Program-made: the position numbers and the translations under genes
Part shown: positions 26,979 to 61,050 of the stretch, in pieces
Layout: each line of letters begins with the position of its first letter
Position numbering within the stretch: the first letter of the stretch is position 1
Notes under the pieces: model-generated
Database searches by the model: none
What the model was told of the DNA's origin: nothing
The model's input: the letters and a program-made list of their open reading frames with translations, nothing else
NCBI GenBank assembly: GCA_001600635.1
Contig: BCKL01000029.1
Coordinates: forward strand, 144,434-208,433
Source of the DNA: Leucosporidium creatinivorum
Lineage: Eukaryota; Basidiomycota; Microbotryomycetes; Leucosporidiales; Leucosporidiaceae
DNA length: 64,000 bases
Reading direction: 5' to 3'

Positions 26979-27089
26979 GAGCAGTCTCCGGAGCCGAGCG
27001 CCGAACTTGACTAACTCTCGGGTCGTGCAGTGCAGCCTTGTTGGTCGAGAGAGCGGGCAAAGAGATGCTTGCCTAGGGCTCCAAGTAAC

Positions 27090-27182
27090 CCTCCCATCGC
27101 TTATCCCTGCTTCCTCTTCTCCTGCACCTCCTCCGTTCCTTTCGCTTCGGCTCCTTCGGCGATCATCATCATCTTGGTTAGC
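27090..27182 (-). pseudogene. DNAJC8 exon-5 fragment in repeat copy A
   Basis: Reads LTKMMMIAEGAEAKGTEEVQ after a GCAG acceptor, against LTKMTMIAEGAEAKRVEEAQ in the live gene (31036-31139). The IEDDKRWE end is shortened and the following donor is lost, so it cannot serve as the original exon. Confidence 0.75.
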
Positions 27183-29192
27183 CTGCGATGAGCACCGGGG
27201 AGGGAGAGGGTTAGCGCGCTGTTCTCGGTTTGCAGGGTGGGAGAACTTGGGCGGGCAGGGTGGAACGAAGGGAGAACTCAGCAAGCGTCGAGCAGCCTTG
27301 TTCGGCGAGGCCGCTCGAGTGACCGAGCCGTGACTGCATGGTCTCTGATGGCACCTGACCCTGGCAATGTTGTCCACGCGAACCAGCGCGACCTGTGTGA
27401 CGCTACCCGCACCTCGTGGAGACCGAGCGAGCCTCGATGAGAGCAGCGAAGCAACGGGAAAGCGAACCGCAAGATGTGCTGCTGGGCCAGCTGCACGGCA
27501 GCTGGGAGGCTCACAGTTGTAATAACACTCCGCTCACCATTCAGCTGACCGTCAGAGCCTCTCAGTGAGAGGCCCGAACGACTCCGAAGGCGAGACGCGA
27601 GCATCGCCGAGCCTGAACGGGAGCTAGCGTCGATTGTGCTCATATTGTCGACGACAGGGAGCCTGCGGCGAAGCTGCGTCAATCAACATCTGCATGCCAC
27701 AAGACGTTGAGTCCAGACTCAAGTCAGGCCACCCTCCTCGAAAGCGCAGCTCGAGCTCGGAACTCGATGTGAAGGAGAGCATGCTGGCGGTTTTGGAGCT
27801 CAGAGTTCACAGCCAGGAGCCCAAAGGGACCAAACACAACAGAAAGACCAAACTGTGGTCTTGCCGCTTGGACAGACCGAGCCACGCCTCACGCCTCGTC
27901 ATCCGGTGCTCGAGCGCCGAGCGCCAATCGAGCACAGCTGGACAGCTCGAGAGGACGAAGCAGGTAGCCGACAGTACTCGACTTCAAAGCAAACCGCACA
28001 GCATGCTCCTAAGCACGCCGAGCAATCCGATAGCGATGAGACATCGACAGCTGCTGCTCCCCTCGGCGCCGACGAGCCTGCTGCGCGGTTTCAGAAGCGC
28101 AGCAGCCTATGGGCAAGGGAAGGGGAGGACGAGACACATGAAAAACAGCCTCGCACCCGCGGTCTGTATCAGACCGCGAGCACGAAGACGATCGCGAGCG
28201 CCGAGCTTCCCCTCGCCTTCCCCACTCCGAGCGCGAGACCACACGACCAGTAACGACGGAGGTGCAAGACCCAGTTGAACTCTCCGTCGCTCATCCCACA
28301 GACGCAGCGCACCGGCAAGCACGCTACGAAAGCAAGAACGCGGGAGACGAGAGCTGCTCTCGCGACGCTGCGAGTCCTCAGCTGACTATCTGCGAGGTCC
28401 TTGACGAGAGCGAGAGACCAACTACTTCGGATCGAGTCTCGCACCCACAGCCGAGGCTCGGTCGCGAGCACACAGACGAGAGAGCGATCTCTCCCTCCCC
28501 TCAGCGTGCTGCCAGAGCCAAGCAAACTACACTGCTTCGGCAGATTATGTCGAGAGTTCCTGACCCAGTGAGCACAACCTCGAAGCTTCCTCGTCCATGT
28601 GTCGGCTCGTGCAGCACGTCTCGAGGAAGCGCAGCCCGAGTCGAACCGGGGGACCTGATCTCGACGCCGAATCGAGTCGAGTCAAGCTGGAGGTGCATCT
28701 GGAGCCCAAGCCTCGTGCAAGGGATCGAGTTCGTCATCCCTAGTCTCCCACCCACAGCCACATCATGACCATGAGCAAGAAGACACGAGCAAGCCCAAGC
28801 TCCCCGCGCCGAGCGGACCGAGCTGCTCTCCTCGCCTGCTGCTTCTCCAGAATCGAGCAACAACCAAACAGAAGTGACTGACGACCCTCATCCGAGCCAT
28901 GCAGTATGCTATCAGCACGCTACACGCGAACGGAGAGCCGGCGAAGACAGCCCGCTCGGCCTGACTTGCTCGAGCCGCCGAGCAAGGCAGAGGAGTTGAA
29001 CGAGGCTGAACTCGCTCGACCAGACCCTCCGCGAGGGCCCAACCGCGCGAGATGCTCCTCTCTGCTCTCTCTGCTCTGCCCTATCCTCCCTGCCCGTCCC
29101 GTCCCGGCCCTTCCCTCCCAGCCTACTCCCGCCAGTCTCCCTCCCTCGCAGCCAGCCCTCGCCTGTGCTAGGAAGACAGAAGGCCAACTCAC

Positions 29193-29270
29193 CTCCTCTT
29201 CCTCAACTCCTCCTCAATCAATATCTCCTTCGTCTTGCTCCTCACCCCCTCCTTGAGGTCGCTGTTGCCA
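29193..29270 (-). pseudogene. DNAJC8 exon-4-end fragment in repeat copy A
   Basis: Reads LKEGVRSKTKEILIEEELRK up to AGG-AG and a perfect GTGAGTTGG donor, as in the live exon 4 end at 33727. Upstream of KEGVRSK the sequence is unrelated to DNAJC8 but shared among repeat copies A, C and D. Confidence 0.75.
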
Positions 29271-30530
29271 CCCAGCGAGCGCAAATCTACGAATGTCCTT
29301 CGCCGAGGTCGGTCGTGAGGAGAGAGGTCGAGGCGACGAGTGAGGAGGGGTGGATGGGAGAGGCGGTTGCGACGATTAGGCGACTGCCCGAGTGAGGGTC
29401 GAAGGGTAAATTAAGGGTAGTGGGAATTGGAAGTAGGGTGGGCGGAAGAGCGAAAGCGAGTCAGCGAAGCGCGTTGGAGAGCATGGCGAGCATACTCTCG
29501 GTTGACCTTTTACAATGTGTTAGCAACGCCGACCTCTTCCAGACGAGTGTCGCTCCGCACCACAACGCAAAGCAGCAGCCTCGGCGAGCGGTTCGGCGAA
29601 GCTGCTCCATCCTGCGGCTTCGAGGAGGTGCGCACCTCTCCGAGTAGACCCTGAGCTTTTCAGCCGTCGACGAGACTTCCTCACAAGCATAGACGACCCA
29701 CCCCTCCGCTAAATGAGCAAAGAAGCGCGACCGTCAGAGAGCCGAGTTCGAGCCCGCCGAGCAGACTAGCGACATCACCTCGACACGAGCGAGGTGAATA
29801 GCGAGAATGAGATGGGATGCTGCTCAACTGCGCGATGAACGGAAGCCAAAGGCCCATCGCAACCTCTTCGAGAGCTCACACCGCCGCCTTCAGCTCGTGC
29901 GCGCCGAGCAGCCCGCCAGCTGCTGCCTCATCTTCAGCCGCTCAGCGCCGAGGCATAGCTACTAGCCTGCACTCTCAGCCCCACGCAGAGCCTAATCCGC
30001 TCCCAGCCATCTGCAGCCAGCCCATCCTCGCCCCACTGGAAACGCATCATCCAACTCACCTTTTCACCCCTCCGAGCTCCCTTCCCCCCCACTCAAGAGC
30101 AGTCCCATAGTATCCACAGCATCAGACGAGGTCCGCTGCTTGCCCTGCTCCTTCCCGCTCGTGCTCCTCCCGTGCAAGTCGAGTCGGAAGTTGAAGGAGC
30201 GTGCTGCTGGCGGTTGGAGGAGATGGGCGATGAGGTGGTCTAGGGTGTAGGGTGGTCGTGCTGAGGTGCACTGAGAAGCTGTAGCATCTTACTGGTGAGC
30301 CGGCGAAGTCGAGCTGAAGAGATGCGGTGAGTTGGCAGAGTCCAAGAGAGGCGGTCGGGCGAGCTGAAGGGGAGCGGGCTGGAGAGGGGACAACGTCGTC
30401 TGTAGCGCAGTGCAGCTCAAGTTCGAGACGATAAGGCTTCCTAATCACTGTGCCGCTCTGCTCCACTCCCCTTCAACCCCTCAAACGCACTACAGCGCTC
30501 AGCTCGGCGAAAAGCTCCCCTCCGCTGCCA

Positions 30531-30725
30531 GCTCCAGCTCGCCTCACAACTCACCGCGTCGAGCGTAAAGGTCACAGAAAATCGATGGTATAGTACTACA
30601 AGCTTCATCATCTTCGTCGACTATTCACAGCCCTGTCCTCGCTCACCCTCTCTCACCTCCCTCGCCTACTCTTCTCCCCGCCACCGCATCTCCCCCTCAC
30701 ATCTCGAGCAAACGATTCCACCGCC
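30531..30725. other. 3' flank of the J-protein gene
   Basis: Junction between the end of repeat copy A and the DNAJC8-like stop. Probably its 3' UTR. Nothing else seen. Confidence 0.4.
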
Positions 30726-33700
30726 TCAGCCCAACACATTCGTCTTGTTCTTCTTCTTCTTCGGCCCCTTCTGGAACGAGCGCCAATCCGTCACTCGGTC
30801 CTCGCGGGTGTCTGTTCGGCGAGAAGCCCGAGAAAGGCGGGGATTGAGATGCAGAGTGGAGTGAGCGGTGAAGGCGAGGAAGTGTGACGAGAGGGACATC
30901 GGTGGGGGGGCAAAGGGGAGAACGAGGGGAGAAAGAGATCAGCTCGGCTCTCGGCGGTCCAGCTTTTTCCTGCTTCAGCCACCAAGAGAGGCGGATGGTG
31001 ACGAGGAGAAAGAGGAGGGGAAAGGGGAGACTCACCCTCCCACCGCTTATCATCCTCGATCTTCCTCTTCCTCTTCTCCTGCGCTTCCTCCACTCGTTTC
31101 GCCTCGGCTCCTTCGGCGATCATGGTCATCTTGGTTAACCTAAAGATGGGAAACGGGGGAGTCAGCAGACCTTCCTAATGCGGGGTGAAGAGGGAGTGTG
31201 GCCATCTGTAAAAGGAGACCGTGCAGGTCAACGAGCGCTGAGCAACCCTCCGCTCGGCAGAACCGCTCGAGCGAACGAGCTGCTTGAGTCCTCTTCCACC
31301 AAGTGCAGCCAGCAACAGAATACTTGTTGCATGCTGCTGGTTACCCTCGAGGCCGGCGTTACACCCTGGCAAAGCGTGAGAGTCTACCCGTGTCAAGCCA
31401 CCCTCCTTGTGAGAGCAGCTCGAGCTCGGAACTCGATGCGAAGGAGAGCATGCTACCGTGGTGTTTGCACACACAAGCTTCAGCAGGGGACTCAAACGGA
31501 CTGAGTGCTCCCAGCTCGAACAACATCGTGTGCTCCAAGCCCATAGCGAGCTCGAAGGCGCACGAAAGGGCGAGGTTCGGCACACTCTTGTTGAGCCGAG
31601 CCCCCGAAATCCAAGAGTCGCGGAGCAATGATGAAGGGACAAACCTCGACTTCCTGCAGACACAAGGCAGCAAGACTACACAGTCCCGCTGCACCAGCGT
31701 CGAGCGAAGCGAACTCACCCCTCATCTCGTTGATCGGCCGACAGCCACGCGAGCACTCGCTAGCTAGTAAGCGACGTTTCACTGGATCGCCCCCATTAAC
31801 ACCATCGCCGCCCCAAAGCAACCTCAGCAGCTCCGAGGCCGAGAAAGGCGAGCGGAAGCGAGCCAGCGCTGTCAGCTCACAGCCGAGAGACACGCATACT
31901 CGAGAAGCAGCCAGAGGGACCATCAGCAAGTACACACCAGCGACCGAGCACTCACTGAGTGCTCGATCACTGAGGGGAGCGAAGCCGACGGCCCGTCTGC
32001 GCCGTCAAAGTGAGAGGCGAAGCTGGAGCTCTCACGTTGAAAGCTACTGGCGCCGACGAGAGTCCCAAGCCCGAAGAGTCGAGGGAAGACACAGCACGCA
32101 GGAGTACGCCAACGTCTCCCACTCACCGCCGTGTTCTGGCCGCGAGCGACAAGACGAGAGCCGGGAGCGACGCCGAGTGCTCCTATTTCCCTTCTCAGCT
32201 GCTGTCGCAAGGTAGCGAGCACACTCTCCAGCAATCGAGCGGCCCAATTCGTATGCATTCAGCTTTGCTCAGCATGCTCCAACACACCAAGCGAAGTCGA
32301 AAGCTAGGGAGAGCGTCGAGCCGCCGAGTCGCCGAGCAGCGGGCAGCGAGCGGCCGAGGAGGCAGCGTTCGATGCAGAGCAGGAACGGGTACACCATCGA
32401 GTAGTCAGAGATGCATAACCGGACTTCGGTAGTAGATCTCGGAGAAGGCGAGCCCCTCCCTCCGCCTCGTCAGCCAGGGCTCAAGCGCCGAGAGCAAGTC
32501 GAGCACCGGGCTGAAGAGCGACAGACGACGAGGTCCGCAGCTACCGGTTCTCGCCATCGGATCAAATCAAATCGCACAGCGCGCTCCGCAGCACTCCGAG
32601 CGAGTCCAATAGCGACGGGAGATCGGCAGCTGTTCTTTCCTTCGGCGCCGAGCCTGCTGCATGGCTTCCTCAGGGCAGCATTCTACGGGCAAGGGAAGAG
32701 GGGGGCGAAAGACTCGGAAAGCAGCCTCGCACCCCCGATCTGATGCAGACCGCGAGCGGCGAAGACAGTCTTGGGCGCCGAGCTCCCCCTCGCAAGGCCT
32801 ACTTAGTGCGAGCCCGCATGCGCAAGAACAGCTGCCCTTCCCTTCATTCTATCTGACCTACAGAACGCACTAGAAAGCGCGCTGCCCGAATCGGAAGATG
32901 GGAAACGTAGCTGCCTCCGGCGGCCAGCAGGGTGTTGGAGAGGGGGGCCAACGAAAGAGCTCCAAGTCCAGCCTTGCACGCACAGCCGAAGTTTGGCTGC
33001 GAGCGTCGAGACGAACGAGCATCTCTCGGCCCCTGCCCCTGCCCCAGGAGCCATCGCCGCACGAAGCCCGAGCCGAAAGCACTGCTGTGCACGAGCCTCC
33101 GAACAAGTGCCATAGAGACCGCTCCTCACAGCGTCATCGACTCGAGCAGCGCCCCCGTGAGAGTGCAGCACGAGCTGAAGCGAGAGACAGCGAGCTCGAG
33201 ACCTGCCCCCGAAGCTGAACCGACTTGAGACTCCTCGAGCTAATTCACGCGCGAGAAGACCCGAAGAAAACTATCAATGTCGTCCACCCACGACCATGCG
33301 TGGCCGTGAGCGAGAAGACACGATAGAGCGCCGAGTCCCCCTGCGCCGAGCGAGCACAGCTTCCCGCCCACTGCTTCAGTAGCGCACGACGAACGAGCGA
33401 GCAGCAGCCAGCTCCTCATCCGAGCCGCATAGCATGCCCAGAGCACACCGCACGACAACGGAGAGCACGGCGAAGCAGCCCGGTCGGCCTGCCTGACTAG
33501 CTCAAGCCGCCGAGCACGGCAGAGGATTGAACGAGGCTAGGCTGAACTCGCTCGACCAGACCCTCGACGAGAGCCCAACCGCGCGAGAAGCAGGCGGTTC
33601 CACTCCCTGTGGCTCCCAGGCAATCTGTCCGCCCATCCCAGCCCTTCTCTCCCAGCCCACTCCCGCCAGTCTCCCTGCCTCGCAGCCAGCCCTCGCCTGT

Positions 33701-34726
33701 GATAGGAAGACAGAAGGCCAACTCACCTCCTCTTCCTCAACTCCTCCTCAATCAAAATCTCCTTCGTCTTGCTCCTCACGCGTTCCCTCAAATCGCCCTC
33801 ACCCTTTCCCTCTATCCCACCTCCGGGCCTGCCCAGTGCAACGAGTCGGGGATCATCATCCGGTGTCGAAGGAGGAAGAGCAGGCTTGACTTGTTCCCGC
33901 AGGACGAGCATTCGGGCGTCTTCTATGGTTTGGTCGAGAGAGGAGCGCTTGAGGGGGTCGGAGAGCTCGACGGCGGCCTGGGAGCGAGTGGGAGGAGAGA
34001 GAGGGGAAAGAGGGAGGGAGGAAGTGGGTTGGGTTGGTAAGAGGAGGGAGGGGAAAGGAGGGCGAGGAGAGGGAACGGAAGGAGGAAGGGAGGGAGAGGG
34101 GGCGAGGGAGAGGGAGCAAACGCGCCGAGCAGCGAGGGCGGGTGAGCAAGGGGGAGGGAAGAGAGAGGGAGGATGTGTTCAGTACAGTACAGCACACGCG
34201 AAAGTAATGAAAAAGCGAGCCACAGCACAAATACCCCACCTTCTTGAGCAAATCGAACGCCTCGATGCCGCGCTCATGCTTGAGCTTGTCCGGGTGGATG
34301 AGGAGGGATTTCTTGCGGTAAGTCTTCTCTGTAGTCCATCCTTTGATTATTAGCAATGCTCTATGAAAGCACAGACGAGTAGGTATGAAGCGACGCACGA
34401 ATCTCCGACTCGGTAGGCTTGCCACTGGGCATCCAGTTCAAGTCCAAGATCTCGTAGGGGTTGAGTTTGAAGGCTTTGACCACCCTCAATACCTGTAGTG
34501 TATCCCTTCCTTTCGTCAGCTACTGCTCTGCTACAGCTCCGAGAGAGAGAGAGAGAGAGACAGCGCGGCGGACCTCTTGTTCCCTAGTGAGGAGGGACGC
34601 CTCAGAGGATAAGATGCGCTCGAGTTCACCTTCGTCGAAGAGAGCGTCTAATGTAGTATCATCTGTAGGTTGTTCCTCCTTCTTTGGTGGAGGTAACTTG
34701 CTCGTTGAAGCTGTAGCGGATGACAT
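30726..34726 (-). CDS. DNAJC8/Spf31-like J-domain protein
   Basis: Six exons in transcript order: 34726-34574, 34492-34399, 34328-34240, 33977-33727, 31139-31036, 30811-30726. They give 258 residues, a normal size for this family. The J domain is FKLNPYEILDLNWMPSGKP then TYRKKSLLIHPDKLKHERGI with the HPD triplet. A conserved C-terminal part follows: KTKEILIEEELRKRR, LTKMTMIAEGAEAKR, then EDTREDRVTDWRSFQKGPKK with a Lys-rich end. Family knowledge: DNAJC8/Spf31 is a spliceosome-associated nuclear co-chaperone of Hsp70. The fourth intron is 2587 nt (33726-31140), about forty times the local norm, and consists of sequence found elsewhere in the window as repeats. It keeps good GTGAGT and TTTAG ends and preserves frame, so the gene is probably live. 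The first intron uses a weak GTCCGC donor. Confidence 0.85.
31140..33726 (-). repeat. Repeat core forming the giant DNAJC8 intron (copy B)
   Basis: The whole fourth intron of the DNAJC8-like gene is homologous to the cores of copies A, C and D. For instance 33340-33560 matches 59190-59330, and 31380-31460 matches 27730-27790. The outer parts of the repeat family are absent here; the flanks are intact exons. Branch-like CTGACT lies shortly before the acceptor. No RNA gene or complete protein gene recognised inside. Confidence 0.75.
34541..34560. repeat. (GA)n microsatellite
   Basis: Ten uninterrupted GA units in the first intron of the DNAJC8-like gene. Confidence 0.9.
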
Positions 34727-34883: not shown

Positions 34884-37800
34884 ATGGCCAGCTCGCCCAC
34901 TCCCTCGCCCTCGCGTCTACGAGCAGCACGCGCCTCCCACTCCCACTCCCTCTGGTCCCTCCTTCCCTCTCCCTCCTCCATCGTCGACCTAACAATCCCC
35001 ATCCCCGGCTCTTCTGTACCCTCCTCCCGGCCACTCTCCCCCAACGCTACCAGACGACCAGGATTAGCAGCAGCCAGAGCAGCACGCGCCAACTCGCCCT
35101 CGCCTCGGAGGGCTGGAGAGCCGCCTGCTGTGGGAGAGAGCAGGTGGAGGAGTAGAGAGTTCTGCTTCTATTATGCCGTGTTCATTTTGGTGCTGCCGAG
35201 GATGGTGGGGAGCGTGGTGAGATTGAGTAGAGGTGAGTGAGGGCTTGTGGACGCGTCGAGCTGAGATGGGAGGTCATGGGAAGGGATGGGGCGAGGCGCA
35301 GGCGCAGGGATATCAAGAATAGCGTGTGCGCTTTGGGGGAGTGCTCTACGATGCTCGGAGATCAGCAGGCGACGAGGGAGGGCAGGACAGGGCTGCTCGG
35401 CGCACGCGACTAAGGCAGCAGCGTGATCTCCGCAGGAGGTCGCGCTGGGTCTTTTAGCGCAGTCGCGATCGGGTCAGCTCTACTCAACCCAGCCACAGTC
35501 AGCTTTATACCAGCTCTCAGTAGCGTGAGCAGCGGCTCGCCTGCTCGGCGGGCTCGGACTTCGCTCCCTCTTCGACGGTCGCGCTTCTTCGCTTGTTAAA
35601 GCCGGTCTGTGGTGGAAGACTCGATCCTCCTCGCTCGTCTCGTGCTTCTTACAGCTGTGCAGCTGGTAGCAGCGCACGAGCTCGCGCCTCGCCTTCTCGA
35701 CCGCTCGGCTTCCTCGCTTGAGGCGGAGGGGCTCGCTGTCTGAAGTATGAGAGAAAGGGTTCTCTGTCAGAGTTAGCACTAGGTCTGCTCCAGGCATCAG
35801 GCGCTGGGGTGGTTGGAGCTTCTTGTGATCCGTCAAGTCGGGGGCTTCTTCGCCGACCTCTGCGGAGTTCGCTGTGCTGCGCTGAGTGCAGAGTGGCGCT
35901 CGGCTGAAGGGGCCCAGTCGTGGTGTTCGCCGATTCTCGCGACCCCATCTCCCGATGTGGTCTGGGCCCCGACTGGGACGGACTAGCTCGCCGAGCAGAT
36001 GGCAGGGGCTGCTTTCGGCGAGGACGAGGGGAGCTCTGCGTCTTCTCGTCACCCTGCTCGCTCCGCTCAGTAAACAGCATGTTCAACAATGCTGATGCTG
36101 GGGCAAAGGGAGAGAAGGCGGCTCGGGAGGGCGCTTCGGGAGCGGAGAGGCTCACCTGCTCTGCTACAGCGGAGGAGGTGGCTTCCTAAACTTCCAAGAA
36201 GACTTCCTCAGTACTTCAGCGTGCGTGGTAACTCCTCGCCTTGCCTCCGTAGCTTGTCAGCACGGTCGAGCGCGCAGGACTCGCCTGCCTTATCAGCTCG
36301 GGCTGAGCTCGTTCGGTGCTAGGCGGACGGGTTCGCTCGGCTAGCTCGAGCAAGCGGACTTGTCATTGAAGGGCCGGGGACGTGCCCTGGGACTTGTAGC
36401 GTGACGCTCGTCTTCCCGATAGATTGAACGGGAGCTCTTCGCCGAGCAGCTAGCTTCCGTTTCCGGCCGAGAGGCTGAGGCGCGAGGCTTGCTGTTGTTG
36501 ATCGTCGAGACTCTTTTCAATCTCGCCGCCAAGACGAGGATTACTTCCGTGACTTTCTCCTTCGTCGCTGTCTCGGGCTCACCCATGCTCGGCGCTCGCT
36601 CATCTTCGCAATGCGGAGTTGCCGCTGTGCTCTACGAGAGCGGCGGTGTGTCTGCTAGGCGTGGAAGGTTGAACGCCTTTTCATTCGCAAGCTCGTACGA
36701 GCTGCTCGCTTGTGCAGGCTGGCTCGCTCGCTCGCTGAGAGGTCGTTTCTCGGCTCGAGAGGATCGGGTCCGTCTCTCTGCGTCGAGACGAAGGGATCTG
36801 CATTGCATTCTCCATCTTGCCGCGTGACAGGTTGAGAAGCGTCGGAGGCGATGCCATGACTGCTGATGAGGCACCGAGCGATTGGGGAGCTCGGCTCCTT
36901 CTCGCGAGGGGAGGAGTGAGCTCCCCAAGGGCGTTGACGCTCTTACTCGCTGAGTCTAACCCGCCGGATCCGGCCTACGCTCGAGCCTCTCACCCTTATG
37001 TGTGGACCGCGAGGTCTGAGGCGCTGAGCGCGGTCGAGCGCGATCCGACTTCTCGGCGAAGGCGGGCTGTTCGCGGGCAGCGGATGGCGCTCCTCGCCTT
37101 ATCGATGAGCAGTACGCTCGTCCTCTTCGGTCCGATATCTGCAAGACTGACCTCTACCGCTAGTCTGGTCACATCCTGCTGTGCCGCCTAGAGCTTTTCG
37201 CTGACTGCCAAGCTCTCCCTCCTACAGTCTCCAACCCCAACTACCCACTCTTCGCGCATCGACTATCACCAGGATGGCTCTTTGGCTGGAAAGTGGTGCG
37301 TCTCTTCTCTCCCTTGCGCTCGCTCTCCCTCACTGACCCGCGCTCTCTCCCTCGCAGGACACCTCGGACCACCAGTGGAACACCTTCCGCTCCAATCTAC
37401 CGATGCTCATCGGTCTCCTCGGACTCTTCATGCTCTCCTCCACTCTCTTCAACCGCTTCTACCGTCCCTCTCCCTCGCCATCCTCGACATCCCTCCCACC
37501 AAAAGCCGTCTTCATCCTCTCCTTCGCCCTCCCGCTGCTCTTCCTCCTACATGGCTCATCGCTACTGAAGATCCTGGCGATCTTGAGCCTCAACTTTTGG
37601 GTCAGTAGGACCGCAAGATGGGGAGGGAAATGGACGAGAGCTGCGCCGGCGATAGGGTGGGCGGTGAATCTGGCGGTGCTGTTCTCGAATGAGCTTTGCG
37701 AGGGCTACAGGTGGGGGAGTCTGAGTAGTGGGTTGGCGTGGTTGGTGAGTCGTCTTCTCGCCGCTCGAGGGGAAGTGCAGAGCTGACCGAGTCGGCGTCG

Positions 37801-39910: not shown

Positions 39911-41301
39911 CTAAGCCGTGCCAGCGCCATCTCCTTCCCTCTCGCTCGGTCCATCCCCCATGAGCGCGCGAACGGCGGGGTGGAAGTCGTCCTGGCTGAT
40001 CACCGCTGTATGAGAGAACTGGGACTGTGGATTTAAGGAAGGTCAGCCCGTTTGCTGGAGTTCGAAGGCCTCAGCACTCACGTGCAAAGCCTTCTCCTCG
40101 TCCTTAACCTTCTTGCCGCCAGGATGTAACGCGCCCTCCCCGGTCCCGACCTCCGCCTTTACGAGCGCCATGGACCGTATCAGGCGATCCATCTCCTTTC
40201 CCTCGTGTTCGATGATCCCCTCGGCGATGACCTTGCCCTCGCTCATGTACAGATCCTCGAGTATGAGTAGGCTAAGGTTGCGGACCGGTCGAGAGAGCGA
40301 CCAGCGAAGAGCTTCTTGCCAATGAGGGTTGAGGTGGAGGTGATGATAGTCGTCGTAGATGCTGAAACTGCGGTCGGGCGAGATGACGAGAGGTAGGTCT
40401 GAGCGAGAACTTAAGAGTTAGCGATGTATTTGCTCGGCGCGGCTGACCGCACCTACGCTGAGGCATGTGCACCATTCTCCCGTCCATCAAGAACGTTGTC
40501 TCGTGAATCAGTCCGATATAGTAGCCATCTTTGTCATCGGGAGTCCAGAACGAGCGAGGGACAGTGTTGGAGCTGGGCATGATTCGGCGAATGCTCGCGT
40601 GCAGCGATTGGGGTGAGATCTTGAGGTGGTCCTCGAACGAGCGAACGACGACTTCCATGAACTTGAAGCGGTCGCGGAGGAGTAAAGGCCTCCTGTCGTA
40701 CTCGAAGCGGATGATGAGGACGTGACTCTGGGCGAGGGAGTCGAGCTTGCCGAGATGGAGCGCCGAGCGAGCTGCCACCATCGCTTCTCCCGAGATCGAC
40801 TGGAGATGCTTCTCACTATCCTGCTTAGCGTAGGAGACGACGGGATTCGCAAGCACTGTGTGCTCGGCTTGCTCGTGTGCAAGGGCGTTGCGACGGCAAG
40901 GCGCTCGGTGAAGGGGGTAGTGGATGAGCTGGGGGGGAGACGGGGTCAGCAGGAAGACGGTAGAACTCGCGGACCCTCAAGAGCTCGCCTGACACTCTTT
41001 CGAGCAGCTGCAAAAGAGTGCGGTGCGTAAGCGTTTGCTCCCCCGGCGCTGGCGGGCGGGCTCTGTGATCGACTCACTACCGTGTTTGCTTGCAACGCGA
41101 GCATACGAGCAGAGCCTTTTCCTTGGTCTCCTCCGATCCACACTGAACACAGCAGAGCTTGAACGACTCGGCTTTGAGGAGTCCTTCGTCTGCCTGGACC
41201 CTCTCGCCGTCGCTGTTCGGAGGGCGCTCGACGGCCTTGCTGGAGAATTCGGCCTTGTTGTCGCAGCTGCTGGTCGGGAAGGAGTTCTTCTGACTGCTCA
41301 T
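39911..41301 (-). CDS. MYND zinc-finger protein, 19-nt-microexon subfamily
   Basis: Five exons in transcript order: 41301-41078, 41007-40989, 40928-40457, 40398-40082, 40024-39911. They give 381 residues. The finger is CCVQC, VCSRC, RYCSKEC and LIHYPLHRAPC. The 19-nt second exon codes the YCSKECQ core, and the intron after it starts GC rather than GT (CAG|GCGAGC to CCCAG). The body has AARSALHLGKLDSLAQSHVL, then HLPLVISPDRSFSIYDDYHH, HWQEALRWSLSRPV and LLILEDLYMSEGK; these segments recur in the genes at 8138 and 55002 and define an unnamed C-terminal domain. No enzyme motif recognised. The only apparently intact member of its subfamily here. The shared leader motif lies 63 nt before the ATG. 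Confidence 0.8.
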
Positions 41302-41364
41302 GCTGCTGTAAATGAGTCGAAACGAGACGAGCAAAGATGGGGCAAGAGGCAAGAGGCGAAACGA

Positions 41365-41379
41365 ACCGAGCGTCTGTTG
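41365..41379 (-). promoter_or_regulatory. Shared MYND-gene leader motif, copy 2
   Basis: CAACAGACGCTCGGT on the minus strand, 63 nt before the ATG at 41301. See the other copies at 25280, 54893 and 61181. Confidence 0.6.
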
Positions 41380-43699: not shown

Positions 43700-43783
43700 G
43701 CTGATTAGCAACAGCGAGCTGAAGGAGGGGGAGAGGAGGAAGACGAAGGATATTCTGATTGAGGAGGAGGTGAGGAAGAGGAG
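43700..43783 (+). pseudogene. DNAJC8 exon-4-end fragment in repeat copy C
   Basis: Reads LKEGERRKTKDILIEEEVRK and ends in AGGAG|GTGAGTGG, paralogous to the live exon end at 33727. The sequence upstream (RRLDLSPHDRPRRRTFAD) is shared with copies A and D but not with DNAJC8. Confidence 0.75.
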
Positions 43784-46726
43784 GTGAGTGGATTTTTGCT
43801 TGCTATCCTAGGCGGGGGCCGGCTGCGAGGGAGGGAGACTGGCGGGAGTGGGCTGGGAGGGAAGGGCCGGGACGGGACGGGCAGGGTGGATAGGGCAGGG
43901 CAGAGAGAGCAGAGAGGAGCATCTCGCGCGGTTGGGCTCTCGCTGAGGGTCCGGTCGAGTGAGTTGAACCCCGCCCAGCTCTGCTGCCTTACTCACCGAC
44001 TTGAACCAAGTCGACCGAGCGGGCTGGTTCACCGACTCACCGTTCTCGTATAGCATTCTGGGAGCATGCTGTAGCAATTGGGTGAGCGTCGTTGCCCGCT
44101 CTGCTCGACCGTGCGCGGCGCTGAAGCAGCAGTGGGCGGGAGGGTCGCCTCGCCTCGCCTCGCTCGGCGCAGGGGGGCCTCGGCGCTCTCTCTTGTCTTC
44201 TCGCCCACGGTCACGATGCGGCTGAGGGCGAAAGACTGTGAAGGTCGATCGGCTACTCTCGGGCGAGACGCCTGAGCTTCAGAGCGCTTTGCCGCCCCGA
44301 CGCAACTCGGCTCGGCTCGGCGTGGAGGGCAGGTCTCGAGTTCTCTCTCTCATTTCGGCTCGGGCTGCACTCTTCGAGAGGGTGCTGCACGATCCGATTC
44401 ATCCAGGAGAGATTCGAGGCTCGTAGCTGTGCAGGGGCTCTTGTGAAGCAGCTTCGCTCGGCGTGGAGCTGCCTCGGCGCTTGCTGGTCGAGCAGGCCAG
44501 GGGCAGGGAAAGGTCGCTCGCTCGTCTTGACGCTCTCAGCCGGTCCGCAGCTGTGGGTGCAAGACTCGAGGGAATCTTTCCTTCCCTTGCCTCTCGCCAA
44601 GCAACATGCAGATCGTCCTCCGAGCACTCGGCGGCGTGAGACCACCTGCCGTCTCTCCTTTTCCGACGTACGCGGATCACCCGTTGGTGCACTGCGTAGA
44701 CTAAATATCGAGTGGGCAAACGCTGCTCGTTTGTAGGGTGGAACCTCACTCAGCCGCCCATCTGGGCCTCGACGATGGCGTGCAAAGGAGAGCTCGGCGC
44801 TCGAGGGCTGTCTTTGCACTCTCGCGCCCGCGGTGGTTAAGGGCGTGGGATTGCTCTGGAGTCATCAAGTCTCTCCTCCTCCCTTCACGGAGCACTTGCA
44901 CGGAGGAAGCCGTGCAGCAGGCTCGGCGCCGAGGACAGGAGCAGCTGCCGATCTCTCGTCGCTATTGGACTCGCTCGGAGTGCTGTACAGTACGCTGCGC
45001 GGTTTAATCAAATGCGCATTCCTCGGTACCATGTCCGCCCCCTCATTTCTTCCCATCGGCCCCTCTCTCTCGCGCTCGGCGCTCCACTTCCGCACGAGGA
45101 GGCAACCGAAGGCGAGGGCTCGCTCTGTCCGAGATATGGGACCGAAGCTCGGGTTCTGCCTCTCTGACTGTGGGTCGAGCTCCTCGTGTCACGCTTTCGG
45201 TGTGAGCGCGATCTGACTCGCCTGCCCGGCGCTGCTCGGCGGCTGGAAGCTCGTCCTCGCTCCTCGGCTTTGCGTGGCGTGCTACATCATATTGAGCCTA
45301 GCTGAGTTGGTGCACAAAGGTGACTCAGCTTTCTCAACAACATAGATCGTTTCTCTGAGTAAAGCTGGAGCACAGGGAGAGAGAGGCGGCTCGCTCTCGG
45401 CGCTCATCTAGTCGTTCGCGGTCAGGAGCTGGCTGTGAGCAGGAGACGTTGATGCGACCCATGATGTCTCTCGCACGCTCTTGTGTCCTACTGACGGCGC
45501 TCTCGTCGAGAGTGATGGACTGCAAAGCGACAAGGTGTCGCTCGACTGAAGCCTCGGCAGCGCAGAGGACTCGGTAGCTCCTCGCTCTCCGTCCTCAGTA
45601 ATCGAGCGTTCGTTGAATGCTTGACCGCTGGGGTGAACTTGAGGAAAGCCCCCCTTGGCTGCGTCCGGAGCACGTGTGCCACTCAGCGGTGAGTCTACAG
45701 CGCTGGCTCTCTTTCGCCTCGCTTTCTCGGTCGTGGAGCTATTGATGCTGCTCTGGGGCGGAGATCAGGATCAAAGACCGTAGCTGGTGCTGCATGCTCA
45801 GCTGTACCACATGACGTTGCAGAGTACCAGCTGCCGGACGCTCCAGCACCGAGATGAGGCCAGCCTTTGCCTCGCTCGATGCTGGTGCGGCGAGACCACG
45901 GAGTCTTGCTGCTGCTCATATACGGCAGAAGGCGAGGAATCCTCCATGTGATCACGCACAGCTTCGCCCCAGCGGCCCAACTCGAGCCGAGTGTGCCGAC
46001 TCTTGCCCTTTCATTCGCCTTCGAGCGCGCGGTGGGCTTGGGGGCCGATGGCAATGTGGGATCGGATCACAGAGTCTGTTCAGGGTCAGTGCTGTGTAGT
46101 GGATGCACTCTCCCAGACAGCGTGCTCTCTACCGCAACCGAGAACCAAGCTCGCGCTGCCCTCTGCGGAAGGGTGGCTTGACTTGGGTGGACAGTCGACC
46201 CTGTAGAGCATGCAGATGTTGGATAACGCAGATTCGCCGCAGGCTCCCTGTCGTTGACAATATGAGCACAATCGACGCTACCTCCCGTTCAGGCTCGGCG
46301 ATGCCCTCGTCTTGCCTTCGCAGTCGTTCGGGCTTCTCAATGAGAGGCTCTGACGGTCAGATGGATGGTGAGAGTGGTATTCTTGCTACTGTGAGCCTCC
46401 CGTCCTGCCGTGCAGCTGGTGCAGCAGCACATCTTGCGGTTCGCTCTCCCGTTGCTTCCTGCTCTCATCGAGGCTCGCTCGGTCTCCACGAGGTGCGGGT
46501 AGCGTCACACCGGTCGCGCTGGTTCAGGTGAGCAACACTGTCTCGATCAAGTGCTATCAAAGACTGTGCATCAAAGGCTTGGTCGCTCGAGCGTCCTCGC
46601 CGAACACGGCTGCTCGTCGCTCCTGCTGCTCTCGGTAGTGGTCTTGTCCGCACACATTGCTCTCCATCAATTCACACGTCTCATAACAAGCGCTTACTCT
46701 CTCTCTCTCTCCTTTGTTCGACGTAG

Positions 46727-46815
46727 GCTAATCAAGATGAGGATGACAACCGAAGGAGCCGAAAGGAACGGAGGAGGTGCAGGAGAAGGGGAAGCAAGGA
46801 TAAGCGGTGGAAGAG
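46727..46815 (+). pseudogene. DNAJC8 exon-5 fragment in repeat copy C
   Basis: Follows an ACGTAG acceptor and reads LIKMRMTTEGAERNGGGAGE, a diverged copy of LTKMTMIAEGAEAKRVEEAQ. Truncated at the end as in copy A. Confidence 0.7.
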
Positions 46816-46924
46816 TCACTTGGAGCCCTATGCAAACATCTCTCTGCCTGCTCGCTCGCCCAACAATGCTACACTGCACGACCTGCGAGTGAGTTAAGCT
46901 CGGTGCTCGGCTCCTAAGACTGCT

Positions 46925-46999
46925 CATGCTCTCGCTTCTCTCCAAAAAACCAAAGCTCGCCGTGCAAGCAGCAGCGAGCAAGTCTGCTTTAGCTTCCAT
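46925..46999 (-). pseudogene. Dead first exon of a MYND gene (start of repeat copy C)
   Basis: ATG at 46999 followed by GAAGCTAAAGCAGAC, aligning with the first exon of the MYND gene at 61273. The finger cysteines are gone (LLAAACTASFG). As in copy A, the repeat begins right after it on the same strand. Confidence 0.65.
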
Positions 47000-47181
47000 C
47001 GTCTTCCAGTTGTGCGCGTATGCGAGTCGAAGAAGCGCGACGAGCGAGCGGGAGGAAGGAGAGAGTCGAGCAAGCCGAGCCGACAATGTCGAGCGGAGTA
47101 ACGAGGTCCGCACCTTGATCCAGCTCTTGTAGCGGAGTGAAGACACTCATAGATGATATTGAAAGCTGCCTAACAAGCTAC

Positions 47182-54435: not shown

Positions 54436-55001
54436 GGCTGGGAGGGCTCGGTGATGCTGCGCCGAGATGTGGTGGTTTTGGGAGGAGTAGGCGAGGGCCT
54501 GCGAGATGTGTCATGGGAATCTGAAGTGCTGTATGTTGCTACTGTATCTGCCTTTGGGTGTAGAGAGCTGTGAGGCTCAAGAGCGCGCCGAGCCGAGGTT
54601 GAGTCTGAGCCGAGGGAAGGTCCGAGAGCCTCTAGCTTCATATGAAGTTCTCGAGGGCACGCCGTACAGTCCATTCTAGTCCTGGACAAGCTCTCGGCTC
54701 AGTGGAGCTCGTTTCTGTCGCTGCTCGTATCCACGGGCGCCGGGTAGCTTTCGCCGAGGGGGCATCAGGACCGCTTCACAGAGCAGCAGTAACTTGAGGC
54801 TGATACTAGCTTTACAGTACAACATCGCTGTAGTCTTGTGCTGCTCTCTGTACATTGCCAAGCACCCTGCACGTTCCCCCTTGTCTCGCTGTCAACAGAC
54901 GCTCGGTCCGTTTCGTCTCTTGGCTCTTGCCACATCGTCTCGTCAGCGTCGACTCGCCTCGGAACAGCTCAGCACCTACAGAAAGAACTCTCTACTCCTC
55001 G
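54436..55001. other. Upstream region of a MYND gene
   Basis: No gene seen. Its right part (54740-54920) is alignable with the sequence before the MYND gene at 25389, so the promoter was duplicated with the gene. Confidence 0.5.
54893..54907 (+). promoter_or_regulatory. Shared MYND-gene leader motif, copy 3
   Basis: CAACAGACGCTCGGT, 94 nt before the ATG at 55002, the same distance as copy 1. Confidence 0.6.
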
Positions 55002-56330
55002 ATGACCGGCTCTAGACCCACCTCCGCACCCTCGACGGGGCAGTCCTACAATTCCCTCGCCGCCGCCGCCTCGCAAATTTCCGAGAGGAGCGTCGCCAAT
55101 CCCATCTGTCAGCAGTGCAGCGCACAGAAAGGACCCAAGGGAGAAGCGTTGCTCATCTGCTCGAAGTGCAGACACTCCCGCTAGTAAGCTAAACCGCTGC
55201 GCGAGTCCGACATTGCCGAGCCGAGGCTGACCGCGCGCTGCGACTTACAGTCGCTCTAAAGCATGTCAGGTGAGCTTGCGCTCGTACAGATCTCTCACCT
55301 GAGCTGACCATCACCTTTTCAGCTGGTACACTGGCCCGCACACCGAGCAATGTGCCGTCGAAACGCTCTCAGCGCCGACCAGGGTGAGGCGATCGGGCTC
55401 GCTGCGCCCGCATCAGCGATGCTCTACCAAGATGCGGACAAGCTTCTCAAAGACATCTACTTTGACCTCGTCGTCACCCTCCGCTCGGCCATGCTCATCG
55501 GGTCCGCCAGTCCCCGCCACAAAACCCTCCTCCTCGCTCTTCAACTCGAATACAACCCCAAGCCTACTCTCCTTCGCTAGCGCTTCGCTCTCGGAAAGGT
55601 AGAGCTCCGTACGCACGAGCAACAGATCGCCCTCAGTGCGGCGCACGAGGCGAGTGTTCGACGCCTCCAGGCGCGAGCCAGGGCCGAGGATGGGTACAAA
55701 CCGCCGGCGCATGCGCTAGATGCCATCTGTTGCGGTGTGGTACTCGAGGCAATACTCCCTTTGGCCACTCCCACGTCTGACGGCAAGAGGTTCCAGATGA
55801 TTCGCAAGCGTACGTCGTTTCCCTCTTTCCGCCATGCGAACTTTGAAGCTCACGCCTGACTCCCTCAACAGATTGTCCCATCGGCATCTCCCCGCAGTCG
55901 CACTACGGCGCTCTTGCGGACTATCGCTCTCTGCGCCCGAACCCTGGCTGGGAGGCCGCCCTGCGCTTCTCGCTCTCGCAACCGACCGCGCGCGACCAGC
56001 AGCTCCTCGCTATGGAGGACCTTCTCGCAAGCATGGGAGCGGATTGGTTCATGGAGGCTCAGGAGAAATGGGAAGCAGGAGAAGGAGAGGCACTAGCTAA
56101 GGCAAGGTCAAAGAGCTGGGAGAAGGGGAGGCAGCAAGAGCGCAAGCGATCGCCGAAAGTGAGTTACGAGCGCTGCGCGACTGCAGGAGACGGAGCTGAC
56201 TATCGAAGCCCCACAGACATCGGCCAAGTCGTCTTTGGAGAAGGCAGTCTTTAGTGTTGACGAGTTGAACCCCGCTCTCAAGGTCGTTTTTGAGGCGGCG
56301 TCGTGGAAGGGCAATGAGCTGAAGAAGTGA
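55002..56330 (+). pseudogene. MYND zinc-finger gene with an in-frame TAG
   Basis: Exons 55002-55183, 55251-55269, 55323-55809, 55872-56158 and 56217-56330 join in one frame over 363 codons, with a single TAG at 55578-55580. Before it: CQQC, ICSKC, the 19-nt exon coding YRSKACQ, and LVHWPAHRAMCRRNA. After it, in the same frame: RFALGKVELRTHEQQIALSA, then HCPIGISPQSHYGALADYRS and LLAMEDLLASMGADW, clearly the same C-terminal domain as in the gene at 39911. The finger also has Arg where its relatives have the Cys of YCSK. So it makes either a 192-residue truncated protein or nothing. Continued frame after the TAG shows that the change is recent, or that some read-through product is made. Confidence 0.75.
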
Positions 56331-56576
56331 GTCTAGGGCCAGGCAGGGACTTGCTAGTCAAATAAAAAGGAACTGTTTCATACAGGTTGATGCTCAGCAG
56401 CTTGAATTCCTTCCGAGAGCGGCGAGCTTCACGTTCCCCGCTCGCAACGCTTGTTCGCCAAGATTCGCCGCTGGAAGCCGTGGGCTTTCTTAAAGAGGCT
56501 ATATCCTTTTGTGTCACACCTTCCGATCGTCAACAAGCCCGTCTCATCTCCAGCAATCAACGAAGCGAAGCCTCTC

Positions 56577-56642
56577 TCTTCTCCTGCGCTTCCTCCACTC
56601 GCTTCGCTTCGGCTCCTTCGGCGATCAGTCATCTTGATTAGC
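56577..56642 (-). pseudogene. DNAJC8 exon-5 fragment in repeat copy D
   Basis: Shortest of the three: retains IAEGAEAKRVEEAQEK-like sequence next to the degraded acceptor GCTAATCAAG, then joins non-homologous sequence at about 56576. Confidence 0.65.
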
Positions 56643-59566
56643 CTGAGGAAGGGGGAGGGAGAGGGTTAGGGCGCTGTTCTCGGTTTGCAGGGTGGGAGAA
56701 CTTGGGCGGGTAGGGTGGAACGAAGGGAGAACTCAGCAAGCGCCGAGCAGCCTTATTTGGCGAGGCCGCTCGAGCGACCGAGCCGTGACTGCACGGTCTT
56801 TGATAGCACCTGAGCGTGGCGATGTTACTCACGCAAACCAGCGCGGCCTGTGTGACGCTACCCGCACCTCGTGGAGACCGAGCGAGCCTCGACGCAACGG
56901 GAGAGCCAACCGCGAAAGGTGCTGTTGCACCAGCTGCACGGCAGCATGGGAAGCTCACGGTAGCAAGACCACACGCTCACCATCTATCTGACAGTCAGAG
57001 TCTCTCATTGAGGAGAAGCCCGAACGACTGCGAAAGCAAGATGAGAGCATCGCCGAGCGTGAACGGGAGCTAGCGTCAATTGTGCTCATATTGTCAATGA
57101 CAGGGAGCCTGCAGCGACGCTGTGTCATCCAACTTTTACCTACTCTTCGACGTCGAGTGCCCACCCAAGTCAAGTCACCCTCCTCAAGGGAGCGGTCCGA
57201 GCTCGGGACTCGATGGAAGGACAGCAAGCGGCGAAGGTTAGCCATACAGATCCACAGCGACCAACCCAGATGAGCCCAGATGGGCCAAAGAGCTGATCTT
57301 GGTCGACCATTGTCAGCCCTCCAGCCCACAGCGAGCTTGAAGGCAAACGAAAGGGCGAGAGTCGGCGCGCTCGGCTCAAGTTGGGCTGCTCGACGCTAGA
57401 CGTCTCAAAAGATGTGGGGAGGAGAAAGAAAGCCGCCGCCGCTGATAGACGCAAGGCAGCAAGAGCTCATCATCCTGCTGCACCAGCGTCAAGCGCAGCG
57501 ATCTCTCCCCCTGATCTCGGTGCTCTGGCCCACAGTCGACTGCCGAAGCCGATGTTTACCACCACAGCAGCGAGTGATAGGACACTAGGTTTCCACGTCT
57601 ACGTTATCCCCGCCCCAGAGCGATCTTGCAGCTCCAAGACCGAGGAAGCGCGCGCAAAGAGCCGCCAGCCTCGGCTTCACAGCCGAAATTCACACGCGCA
57701 CCGCAAACAGTCAAGAGCACAGCGTATGCACGGCATCTCTTCAGCTGAGAACCTTGGGAGTGCTGAGCTGGGAAGGAGACGGACGCCAGCGAGCTCCCTG
57801 CGCTGGTCAAGGTGAAGTCGAACCCCGAGGTCCCCTTGCGGAGACTGCTCAAGGACACGGCGTGATGCAGTTATGCAGGCTCGGCCAACGGAATACAAAG
57901 CGCTCGCCCCAGGGCATCTACATCCCGAGCTCACAGCCAGTCTTTGACCGCAAGCGACGAGACGAGCAACGAGAGCGAACGCCTCTCCCAGTTCGAGGAG
58001 ACGCCGCCTCCTTCATTGAAGAGCAGGCGCGTGGCTCATGAGCCAATATATCGCCGTCTACGCACTCGGACTTGACTTAGCATGCACAAGCACACCGAGC
58101 GAAGCCGAGGAGCGAGTGAGCATGTCCAGCCGCCGAGCAGCGAGCGAGCCCACAGTTGACGAGGCAGGTCTGGAAGGGAGAGACGGCAAAGCTTGGCATC
58201 ATGCAGTCCAAACAGAAAGACCAGTCTGTGGTCTTGCCGCTTAGACAGAGCGAGCCCTACCTCCCGCCTCGCCGCTCGGCAGTCGAGCGCCGAGAGCAAG
58301 TCGAGTACAGCTGGAGACCTCAAGAGGATGAACCAGGTAGCTGACAATCAAGAACTTCGAATCAAACCGCATGGCATGCCTCTGAGCACGCCGAGCAAAT
58401 CCGATAGCAACGAGATCGGCAGCTGTTCTTTCCCTCGGCGCCGAGCCTGCTGCACGGCTCCCTTCGTAGACGTCGTTAAAAAGAGGTGAAACTTCCGCAG
58501 TTGGTCGACAGCCTTGCACCCTCAAACCCCCCGAGACCGAGAGCGCGAAGACAGCCCTTGAGCGCCGAGCTCCCCTTCACGACATCCTCGAGAACGAAGC
58601 GGGGATGGACTGCTGGAGCACCTCCGTGTGTGCAAGCCAGCAGGTCGATTGGCATGACGTATCCAGCCCACGCAGCGCGCTCTGAAGCGCGCCGCAAGGG
58701 TACGAAAGGGAGAGACGACAGCTGCTCTTACTCCGCCGAGTGCTCGGCTGACGATCTGCGAGGTGATTGACGAAGAGCGAGGGAGGTCTACTCCCACGCA
58801 AGTCTGGCACCCACAGCCGAGATTCGGTCGCGAGGAAAGCGAGCGGACTCCCTTCTCCTCTGCGAGCTGGCAGCGCGCAGCACCGTCCGCTTCTCGGGCG
58901 AGTGCTGCCGAAAGACCGACAAGGAAGGACAGTTGATGATCCTCCTCTACACGTATCAGCTGAAGCAGCGCCCTCCTGGAGAGTGCGCAACGAGCCGAAG
59001 CAAGAGAGACGAGCGCCCTCCGCTCAACGCCGATTGGGAGCCGAGTCGAGTCACGCTGGAGGTGCGCCTGGAGCACAAACGTTCCGCAGAGAGAGACGTT
59101 TGTCTTCCATAGTCTCCCGCCTACAGCCGTTCGTTGACTGCGAGCGAGACACGAGCGAGCCCAAGTCCACCCCTGCACCGAGCGAGCCGAGCTTCCCGCC
59201 CACTGCTTCAGTAGCGCACGTCGAACGAGCGAACAGCAGCCAGCTCCCAATCCGAGCCGCATAGCATACTCCGAGCACACCGCACGAGACCGGAGAGCAC
59301 GGCGAAGCCGCCCGCTGGGCTGACTAGTTCGAGCCGCCGAGTAAGGCTGAGGTGACAGAGGACGACTACATCCGAGTCGACCAGGCCGTCCTCGAGGGCC
59401 AAATCAATCCAGAAGCCCCGTTAGCTCCCTGCCTCCCAGCATCCTTCCCACGCATCCTGCCTGGCTGCCCCGCCCACGCCATCCCAGCCGAGCCCATCAC
59501 CTCCCCTCGCAGCCCTCACTCGGAGCTCTCTCCACTCCACTCCAAGAACGAGAACCAAAAACTCAC

Positions 59567-59650
59567 CTCCTCTTCCTCAACTCCTCCTCAATCAAAATCT
59601 CCTTCGTCTTCCTCCTCACCCCCTCCTTCAAGTCGCTGTTGCTAATCAGC
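59567..59650 (-). pseudogene. DNAJC8 exon-4-end fragment in repeat copy D
   Basis: Reads LKEGVRRKTKEILIEEELRK up to AGGAG|GTGAG, followed upstream by the shared non-DNAJC8 sequence RRLDLSPHDRPRRRTFA. Confidence 0.75.
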
Positions 59651-61050
59651 GAGCGCAATTGGCGAATGTCCTCCGCCGAGGTCGGTCGTGAGGGGAGAGG
59701 TCGAGGCGACGGGTGAGGAGGGTTGGATTGGGGGGGCAGAGTGAGGAAAAGAGGTGACTGCGCGGGTGAGGGTCGAAGGGTGAAGTAAGGGTAGTTGGGA
59801 TTGGAAGCTGGTAGGGTGAGCGAACGAGCGAAAGCGAGTCAGCGAAGCGCATTGGAGAACATGGCGAGCATACTCTCGGTTGACCTTTTACACTGTGTTA
59901 GCAACGGCAACCTCTTCCGGACGAGTGCCGCCCCGCACTCTGGCGCGAAGGTGCAGCCTCGGCGTGAGGTTCGGCGAAGGTCCTCCTACCGTTCGCCCGG
60001 ACCGGGGGCTGGCTACGCCGAGAGCGCATAGCCTTCCTGACCATGAGCCAGCTGCTGGCCTACGACGTAGACAACGCACCCCTCCTCCCGTCGAGCGAAG
60101 AAGCGCGACCGTCAAGCCGCCAAGTCCGAGTCCGCTGAGCCGAATGAGGCTTGCTCTCTGACACGAGAGCTGGAGCGATGAAGCGCAAACAAGAGACACG
60201 CGTAGGCCAGGCAACTGCACATACAGATGGACCGCTCTCCTACTCTGTCAGTCGGGGAGCAGTACCGCCAATGAGTGAGCTTCGGGCCGAGCTGCGAACA
60301 CCGCTCATTGCTTCAGCAAGAGCGGAGTATGACGCAGGAAGACACTGTGGGGGATTGGTCGTAGTCGGCGCTGCAGCGCTTCAGAGACCCAGCGCAGCCC
60401 TCTTAGAAAAAGGTCACGCCGGCGGCTCGAAGTGCGCGCGCCGAGCAGCCTTCAAACGAGCGGCCGTCTGCTCTACAGCTGCTCAGCATCGGGAGGTCTC
60501 TACCACTCTTACAATCCTAGCCCACGCGTATTCCATTCCGCTCCCAACCTCTGCAGCCAGCCCGTCCTCGCCCCGCTTGAAACGCATCATCCAACTCACC
60601 TTCCCTCCCTCCGAGATGCCTTCTGTCCCTCTCAGCAGCAGTTCCATAGTATCTAAAGCATCACACAAGGTCCGCTGCCTGCCCTGCTCCTACTCGCTCG
60701 TGCTCTTCCCTTCAAGTCGAGTCGAAAGTGGAAGGAGTGCTGCTAGCGGTTGGAGGGAATGGGAGGGTGCAGGTGCTCTAGGGTGTAGGAAAGTAGTCTT
60801 GAGGTGTAGTAAAGAGCTGTAGCATCTTGGTGCTGAGCAGGCGAATTCGAGCTGAGAAGACGAGGTGAGTTGGCAGAGTCCAAGAGGCGGGCCGAGCAGG
60901 CGAGACGAAGGGGAGAGGGCTGGAGAGCGGTGAACGTCGTCTGTAGGAACTCAAACATCAGTGAGAAGCTACCTAGATGCTACTGGGCCCTGGTCTAGCA
61001 CCTCCCTAGCCCTGGAACACGCTACAGCGCTCAGCTCGGCGATAAGCTGA

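Follow-up and report, generated by a model that had tools for sequence, protein, structure and literature searches.

The window, that is, the whole stretch of 64,000 nucleotides of Leucosporidium creatinivorum DNA analysed here (G+C content approximately 60%), contains a live DNAJC8-like gene on the minus strand (30726..34726). It has six exons (34726-34574, 34492-34399, 34328-34240, 33977-33727, 31139-31036 and 30811-30726), and the spliced frame is open throughout, reading 258 codons plus a stop. The translation used for domain and structure-chain comparisons, which was typed by hand and is one residue longer than 258 amino acids, contains a DnaJ domain (36.2 bits against a Pfam cut-off of 27.8), and residues 41-256 resemble the human DNAJC8 chain 7vpx_J (E = 6e-10). 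Because the alignment with human DNAJC8 covers the products of exons 4 and 5, both exons belong to the gene by descent; the product is probably a splicing factor. Intron 4 (31140..33726, minus strand) is 2,587 nt long, whereas the remaining four introns measure 70-262 nt. It begins with a GTGAGT donor and ends with a TTTAG acceptor, ahead of which lies a CTGAC word resembling a branch-site motif. The donor of intron 1 (34573-34493) reads GTCCGC, which is required for the frame and is unlike the GTGAGT of introns 4 and 5, and this border may be misplaced. An exon of an MBOAT-type acyltransferase lies near the gene (37876-38853; 54.6 bits against a cut-off of 27), and a gene at 53443-54432 encodes an Ada-type metal-binding domain (99.9 bits) together with AraC-type helix-turn-helix matches below the cut-off.

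Three copies of the DNAJC8 intron and its exon edges

Self-BLAST located three copies of a unit related to this intron, in agreement with the places and orientations proposed by the first-pass annotation: copy A (26862..30531, plus strand; also seen with nhmmer), copy C (41348..47069, minus strand, inverted) and copy D (56571..61215, plus strand). In each copy, approximately 70 nt of exon 4 adjoin a GTGAGT donor, followed by a relative of intron 4 that measures 2.0-2.9 kb and ends in an acceptor, and then by exon 5. The exon 4 end, intron and exon 5 are collinear in all three, so the copies have retained the intron of their parent together with its genomic context, unlike a processed (retro) pseudogene, from which the intron is removed. 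The donors start at 29192 (A), 43784 (C) and 59566 (D), corresponding to 33726 in the live gene, and exon 5 starts after the AG at 27182, 46727 and 56642, corresponding to 31139. Donor and acceptor are both retained in every copy; branch-like words are CTAAC in A and D and a weaker CTTAC in C. The earlier description of a 2.0-2.9 kb core bracketed by DNAJC8 exon edges, with its donor kept, was thus borne out in A, C and D. The part of exon 4 common to the copies is only about 70 nt, however, and the repeated unit is longer than the core, spanning 3.7-5.7 kb and extending beyond it on both sides. The core of copy A is shorter than the others, lacking approximately 0.9 kb that is common to C, D and the live intron.

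The homology of live intron 4 to these cores is well above chance. With exons omitted, BLAST scores against the live intron were 274 bits for A, 237 for D and 196 for C, whereas the best of 300 dinucleotide shuffles (100 per copy) reached 34.6 bits. As a second control, we compared 16 pieces of 2.5 kb, with starts outside the copies, against the copies. The piece holding the intron scored 274 bits, two pieces with the starts of MYND-type genes scored 78.8 and 66.2, the piece upstream of DNAJC8 scored 62.6, and the remaining 12 scored at most 38.3. Counted over alignment columns in which the live intron has a base, the intron is 63% identical to A (1032/1638), 59% to C (1501/2524) and 58% to D (1476/2525), and the copies are 64% (A-C), 68% (A-D) and 58% (C-D) identical to one another. 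Because identity over the intron columns is 58-68% in all six pairs, the copies are not assembly duplicates of one locus.

The two exon fragments differ in their state of preservation. The exon 4 end matches the live gene at 62 of 70 nt in A (29193..29262, minus strand), 59 of 70 in C (43714..43783, plus strand) and 64 of 70 in D (59567..59636, minus strand), or 84-91%, and its reading frame is open in the copies. Between copies, 62, 66 and 64 of the 70 nt are identical (89-94%), which is as similar as the copies are to the live gene; protection of the live gene alone is therefore insufficient to explain the conservation of this piece. The encoded peptides contain K-E-G in all copies and R-E-R in the live gene, a change that, with no outgroup, may lie on either side. 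Exon 5, which is 77-90% identical to the live gene, is open in that gene and broken in every copy: it has an early stop in the live frame in A (27094..27182, minus strand, far end approximate), is frameshifted with a 5-nt alignment gap in C (46727..46812, plus strand, far end approximate) and is truncated and frameshifted with a 2-nt alignment gap in D (56571..56642, minus strand), whose left border falls within the exon 5 homology.

The exon 4 homology ends at a shared point in all copies (33779, 33796 and 33796 of the live gene by BLAST), past which all three continue into the same sequence, described below as block B2. Beyond exon 5, A and C also share sequence, D being truncated there. A breakpoint common to all three copies points to one capture followed by amplification. 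Judged from the sequences, this suggests a single capture event, not an intron that repeatedly picked up its edges.

MYND-type genes and the outer ends of the repeated unit

The first-pass annotation did not mention the MYND-type genes around the copies or the shared sequence outside the exon edges. We found five such genes, only one of which passes the Pfam zf-MYND cut-off of 22.7 bits: the gene left of copy A (25389..26411, plus strand), with 27.5 bits in its first exon. The gene right of copy D (61273..62222, plus strand) scored 22.2 bits in a hand-joined reading. Both were recovered by a motif scan, as was a fifth gene, at 9690..10029 (plus strand), which was also found by tblastn and has the same 5' start as the gene at 61273. 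The scan missed the genes adjoining copy C (40275..41301, minus strand) and left of copy D (55002..56550, plus strand, 3' end approximate), which were recognized by a cysteine motif seen by eye and by similarity of their bodies; the body of the former resembles open reading frames at 55308-55841 and 9018-8656. By eye, the gene left of D seems to enter the antisense of the exon 5 fragment (56450-56642), and its C terminus may be partly repeat-derived. Together with intron-rich genes and GTGAGT-type donors, the MYND fingers are in keeping with a basidiomycete of the red-yeast kind. MYND fingers can be numerous in such yeasts, with 26 zf-MYND proteins in Rhodotorula glutinis, 11 in Sporobolomyces roseus and 7 in Microbotryum in the excerpted Table 3 of PMC4469406.

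The repeated unit bridges neighbouring MYND-type genes, taking in the 5' end of one and reaching the region upstream of the next. Beyond exon 5, A and C terminate within the 5' portion of such a gene, with a ATGGAAGCT start as at 61273 and 9690. The left end of A (26862-26976) matches 61244-61357, the start of the MYND-type gene beside D (E = 1.6e-15), and the left end of C (47069-46962) matches 61204-61311 (E = 7.5e-22). On the other side, C and D run past B2 and a further block, B3, up to the MYND-type genes at 41301 and 61273, and copy A stops at about 30531, adjoining the 3' end of DNAJC8. The right end of C, 41348, is the place equivalent to 61215 in D. Because C starts (47069) and ends (41348) at equivalent MYND upstream places (61204-61215 in D), it represents approximately one period, 5.7 kb long, between successive MYND upstream regions. 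The right ends of the units also match the regions upstream of the genes at 25389 (25123-25336, E = 9.8e-10) and 55002 (54749-54969, E = 2.2e-7). The duplication thus covers sequence of more than one gene and has variable ends, as expected of segmental duplication.

Upstream of DNAJC8, an inverted region (34968..37292, minus strand) may be the decayed right half of a fourth unit. It consists of three pieces in the order of copy C, namely B2 (E = 2.7e-4), the insertion of copy C (7.6e-14) and B3 (0.0045). Its nhmmer E values were 5.5e-16, where the bias correction amounted to 35 bits, and 1.7e-19 for a match to A, and BLAST gave 62.6 bits against a best shuffle of 33.7. Profiles of single copies gave scattered weak matches at other places in the window, the strongest of them at 62673-63067 (E = 2.4e-8), and for this reason only the 7.6e-14 piece and the 1.7e-19 match to A carry weight.

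The outer ends of the copies do not resemble those of a mobile element. The left edges (26862, 47069 and 56571) fall at different points of the unit, and on the right A stops at 30531, short of the points reached by C (41348) and D (61215). All of these positions are borders of BLAST alignments and may be off by some tens of bases. At the copy edges, inverted words of only 9-10 nt were found (E = 0.12-0.47), nothing beyond chance, and the longest words shared as potential target-site duplications were 5, 7 and 6 nt, different for each copy. On these borders, the terminal inverted repeats and target-site duplications of cut-and-paste DNA transposons and MITEs were not seen. Helitrons are marked by a 5' TC, a 3' CTRR with a hairpin and insertion in AT. 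In introners, the ends of the element are the ends of the intron, whereas here homology continues into both exons, which argues against this class. The absence of target-site duplications or inverted repeats would not by itself exclude introners, because many introner families are without such marks: in the available part of PMC9860276, target-site duplications were found in 49/130 families and terminal inverted repeats in 72/177. As in the introners described there, a sequence-similar intron occurs at several places in one genome. However, the family medians given in that part are 30-654 nt, compared with 2-3 kb here, and within the window only one of the four places is the intron of a live gene.

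Conserved blocks and shifting nearest pairs

Three blocks of the unit are more similar between copies than the sequence around them. B1 (A 27340..27700, C 46205-46565, D 56800-57150) is 84-88% identical between copies, and a profile search of the window at E = 0.01 found the three copy sites and no other. It lies in a stretch of approximately 300-380 nt (about 27340-27720 in A) that is present in all copies and mostly missing from the live intron, which has approximately 90 nt that do not align at this position. B2 (A 29262..29495, C 43480-43715, D 59636-59870) is joined to the exon 4 end at the common point, and the two together are 87-88% identical between copies. B3 (A 29930..30360, C 41680-42115, D 60465-60900) is 77-85% identical and holds GGTGAGTTGG, on the minus strand of A, in all three copies. 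Between the blocks, identity is 58-64% from B1 to exon 4 and 62-75% from B2 to B3, with some single windows high for one pair (A-D 78-80%, A-C 89%). Neutral decay of a passenger, without conversion tracts or constraint, does not explain blocks of 77-88% beside intervals of 58-75%; B1-B3 may represent tracts of conversion or spacer under constraint.

Copy C has an extra stretch of approximately 790 nt between B2 and B3 (42670-43460) that is absent from A and D, part of which recurs in decayed form at 35908-35668 (E = 7.6e-14). The words CGCCGA/TCGGCG and GCTCGGCG are strongly over-represented in the window (CGCCGA, 233 against 57 expected, both strands pooled), as is the palindrome TCGGCGCCGA, whose 12 pooled counts correspond to six places against 0.3 expected. 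These words occur at 4.6 per kb in the units and the intron and at 3.3 per kb elsewhere.

A protein-coding gene within the core was rejected. At E = 0.1, no Pfam match was found for any of the 30 stop-to-stop open reading frames of at least 150 amino acids that overlap the units or the intron, nor for two frames of 70 amino acids, and indels of up to 30 nt were not in multiples of three (58/317 over the six pairs). Long frames mean little in this G+C-rich window, because it contains 113 stop-to-stop frames of at least 150 amino acids. A structured RNA in B1 was likewise unsupported: the copy C block folds no better than its shuffles (z = 1.22 and -0.30); a two-sided change was seen in 1 of 92 predicted pairs among the three sequences. 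Rfam gave nothing in the window at the gathering threshold, and at E = 0.5 the sole match in copy A was to a miRNA, at 25.6 bits where the gathering score is 62. An exact 29-base B1 word was absent from viral_contigs and a 22-base B1 word from genome_contigs, which carries little weight as these collections are bacterial, archaeal and viral; similarly, the core of copy A had no match in a plasmid collection, which again says little. Among the open-licence papers searched, we found no related account of a DNAJC8 intron in fungi.

The closest pair among the copies shifts along the unit, from A-D on the exon 5 side to A-C beside the exon 4 donor and C-D between B2 and B3. Neighbouring informative sites agreed on the pair 593 times, compared with a mean of 412 and a maximum of 473 in 2000 shuffles. 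With the live intron as a fourth member, 93 sites agreed against a mean of 62, a value reached in none of 5000 shuffles. At 33316-33450, the live intron is 86% identical to D, whereas the other five pairs are 57-66% identical; beside the donor, its identity is 82% to A and 76% to C but 48% to D. The simplest cause of these shifting pairs would be ectopic recombination or gene conversion, although part of the signal could be misalignment in poor columns. Ectopic conversion with decay of paralogous regions has been described in Aspergillus, and the portion of that account available to us (PMC12844118) reports, as here, patchwork similarity of nearby copies with point changes and deletions. Unlike that case, as far as the same portion describes it, the affected DNA here is spacer and a live intron instead of whole genes, and the exchange would be one deduced within a single sequence.

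Origin of the copies

We consider it probable, at roughly 70%, that the directly observed features, namely the homology, the shared breakpoint, the broken exon 5, the MYND setting, the lack of common ends and the conflicting pairs, reflect known processes, with a DNAJC8 fragment carried as a hitchhiker between the genes of a MYND cluster. A DNAJC8 stretch, running from approximately 70 nt before the exon 4 end through intron 4 to exon 5, would have been copied a single time and joined to the 5' end of a MYND-finger gene at one border and to the unrelated B2, B3 and MYND upstream region at the other. As the MYND gene cluster grew, the chimeric spacer would then have multiplied with it through segmental duplications in either orientation, probably via non-allelic recombination between the repeated MYND upstream regions. 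Later, stretches may have been exchanged among the copies, and in places with the live intron, by ectopic recombination or gene conversion. The order of these events, the recombination mechanism and the role of the live gene as donor are what we infer. The first-pass annotation had proposed, as one alternative, a dispersed repeat formed from the DNAJC8 intron and its exon edges; the fragment is indeed present three times, but apparently as a passenger of segmental duplication without ends of its own.

Some observations count against the hitchhiking explanation. B1, the exon 4 end with B2, and B3 are conserved in all pairs above the level of the intervals between them; the exon 4 end is equally similar between copies and between copies and live gene, which would be unexpected were constraint confined to the live gene; every copy retains its donor and acceptor; and just one of the five MYND-type genes passes the Pfam cut-off. 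The conserved blocks would be accommodated if the units were selected, expressed chimeric or non-coding RNA genes whose exons would be B3, B2 plus the exon 4 end, and exon 5. This would also suit the high identity of the exon 4 end between copies, the GTGAGT that follows both this end and one point in B3 in all three copies, and the frames running into the exon 4 end, which are open for 73, 112 and 91 codons. We nevertheless regard such genes as very unlikely, given that the exon 5 frames are broken and that the frames in B3 and upstream B2 differ among the copies. In addition, changes in B1, counted by position class without net frameshift (5, 22, 12 for A-C; 11, 20, 18 for A-D; 10, 9, 16 for C-D), are uneven with no single consistent class and no consistent third-position excess, and the B1 folding and pair-change results given above lend no support to a structured RNA. 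There is also a small chance that the DNAJC8 intron and the silent copies form one recombining pool, in which the intron would be rewritten again and again from spliceable cassettes close by, with B1-B3 under selection.

Readings that invoke a mobile element have to account for the outer ends. A non-autonomous gene-capturing transposon, either a Helitron or a Pack-type DNA element, could have taken up and dispersed the pieces of DNAJC8 and MYND genes; the repeated unit does combine fragments from two genes or more, and it occurs in both orientations. The excerpted text of PMC4469406 gives Helitrons as 10% of transposable-element sequence in the basidiomycete Microbotryum. However, the ends vary, the inverted and shared words at the edges are as short as described above, and all three copies adjoin MYND-type genes; the lack of Pfam matches in the 30 frames is compatible with a non-autonomous element. 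On balance, we find such a transposon improbable. We think still less of the possibility that the core was originally an element inserted into DNAJC8, where it lengthened or displaced a formerly short intron 4, with the exon-edged copies arising later. The length of intron 4 relative to its neighbours would be explained in this way, but the core is bracketed by DNAJC8 exon edges in all three copies, the window holds no gene-free copy, and no insertion ends were recognized inside the intron. The earlier suggestion that an element captured the exon edges and replaced the intron, though conceivable, likewise gains no positive support from the differing outer ends, the absence of inverted termini and the lack of Pfam matches.

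The copies therefore appear to exemplify known processes and not a new mobile element. As in segmental duplications that carry an unprocessed pseudogene fragment, the intron is retained, an exon fragment has decayed and pieces of several genes are joined; as in segmental duplication of multigene clusters, the unit is repeated between members of a gene family. Unlike known pseudogene fragments, the one here comes from a nearby, unrelated gene, and the live intron of that gene has kept its resemblance to the copies; conserved blocks also lie inside the units. The locus shows how a gene fragment carried between the members of a growing gene family can produce a pattern like that of a new intron-borne element. 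If sequence does pass between the live intron and the copies, the locus would lend itself to testing, in a natural setting, how ectopic conversion shapes a long intron among short ones.
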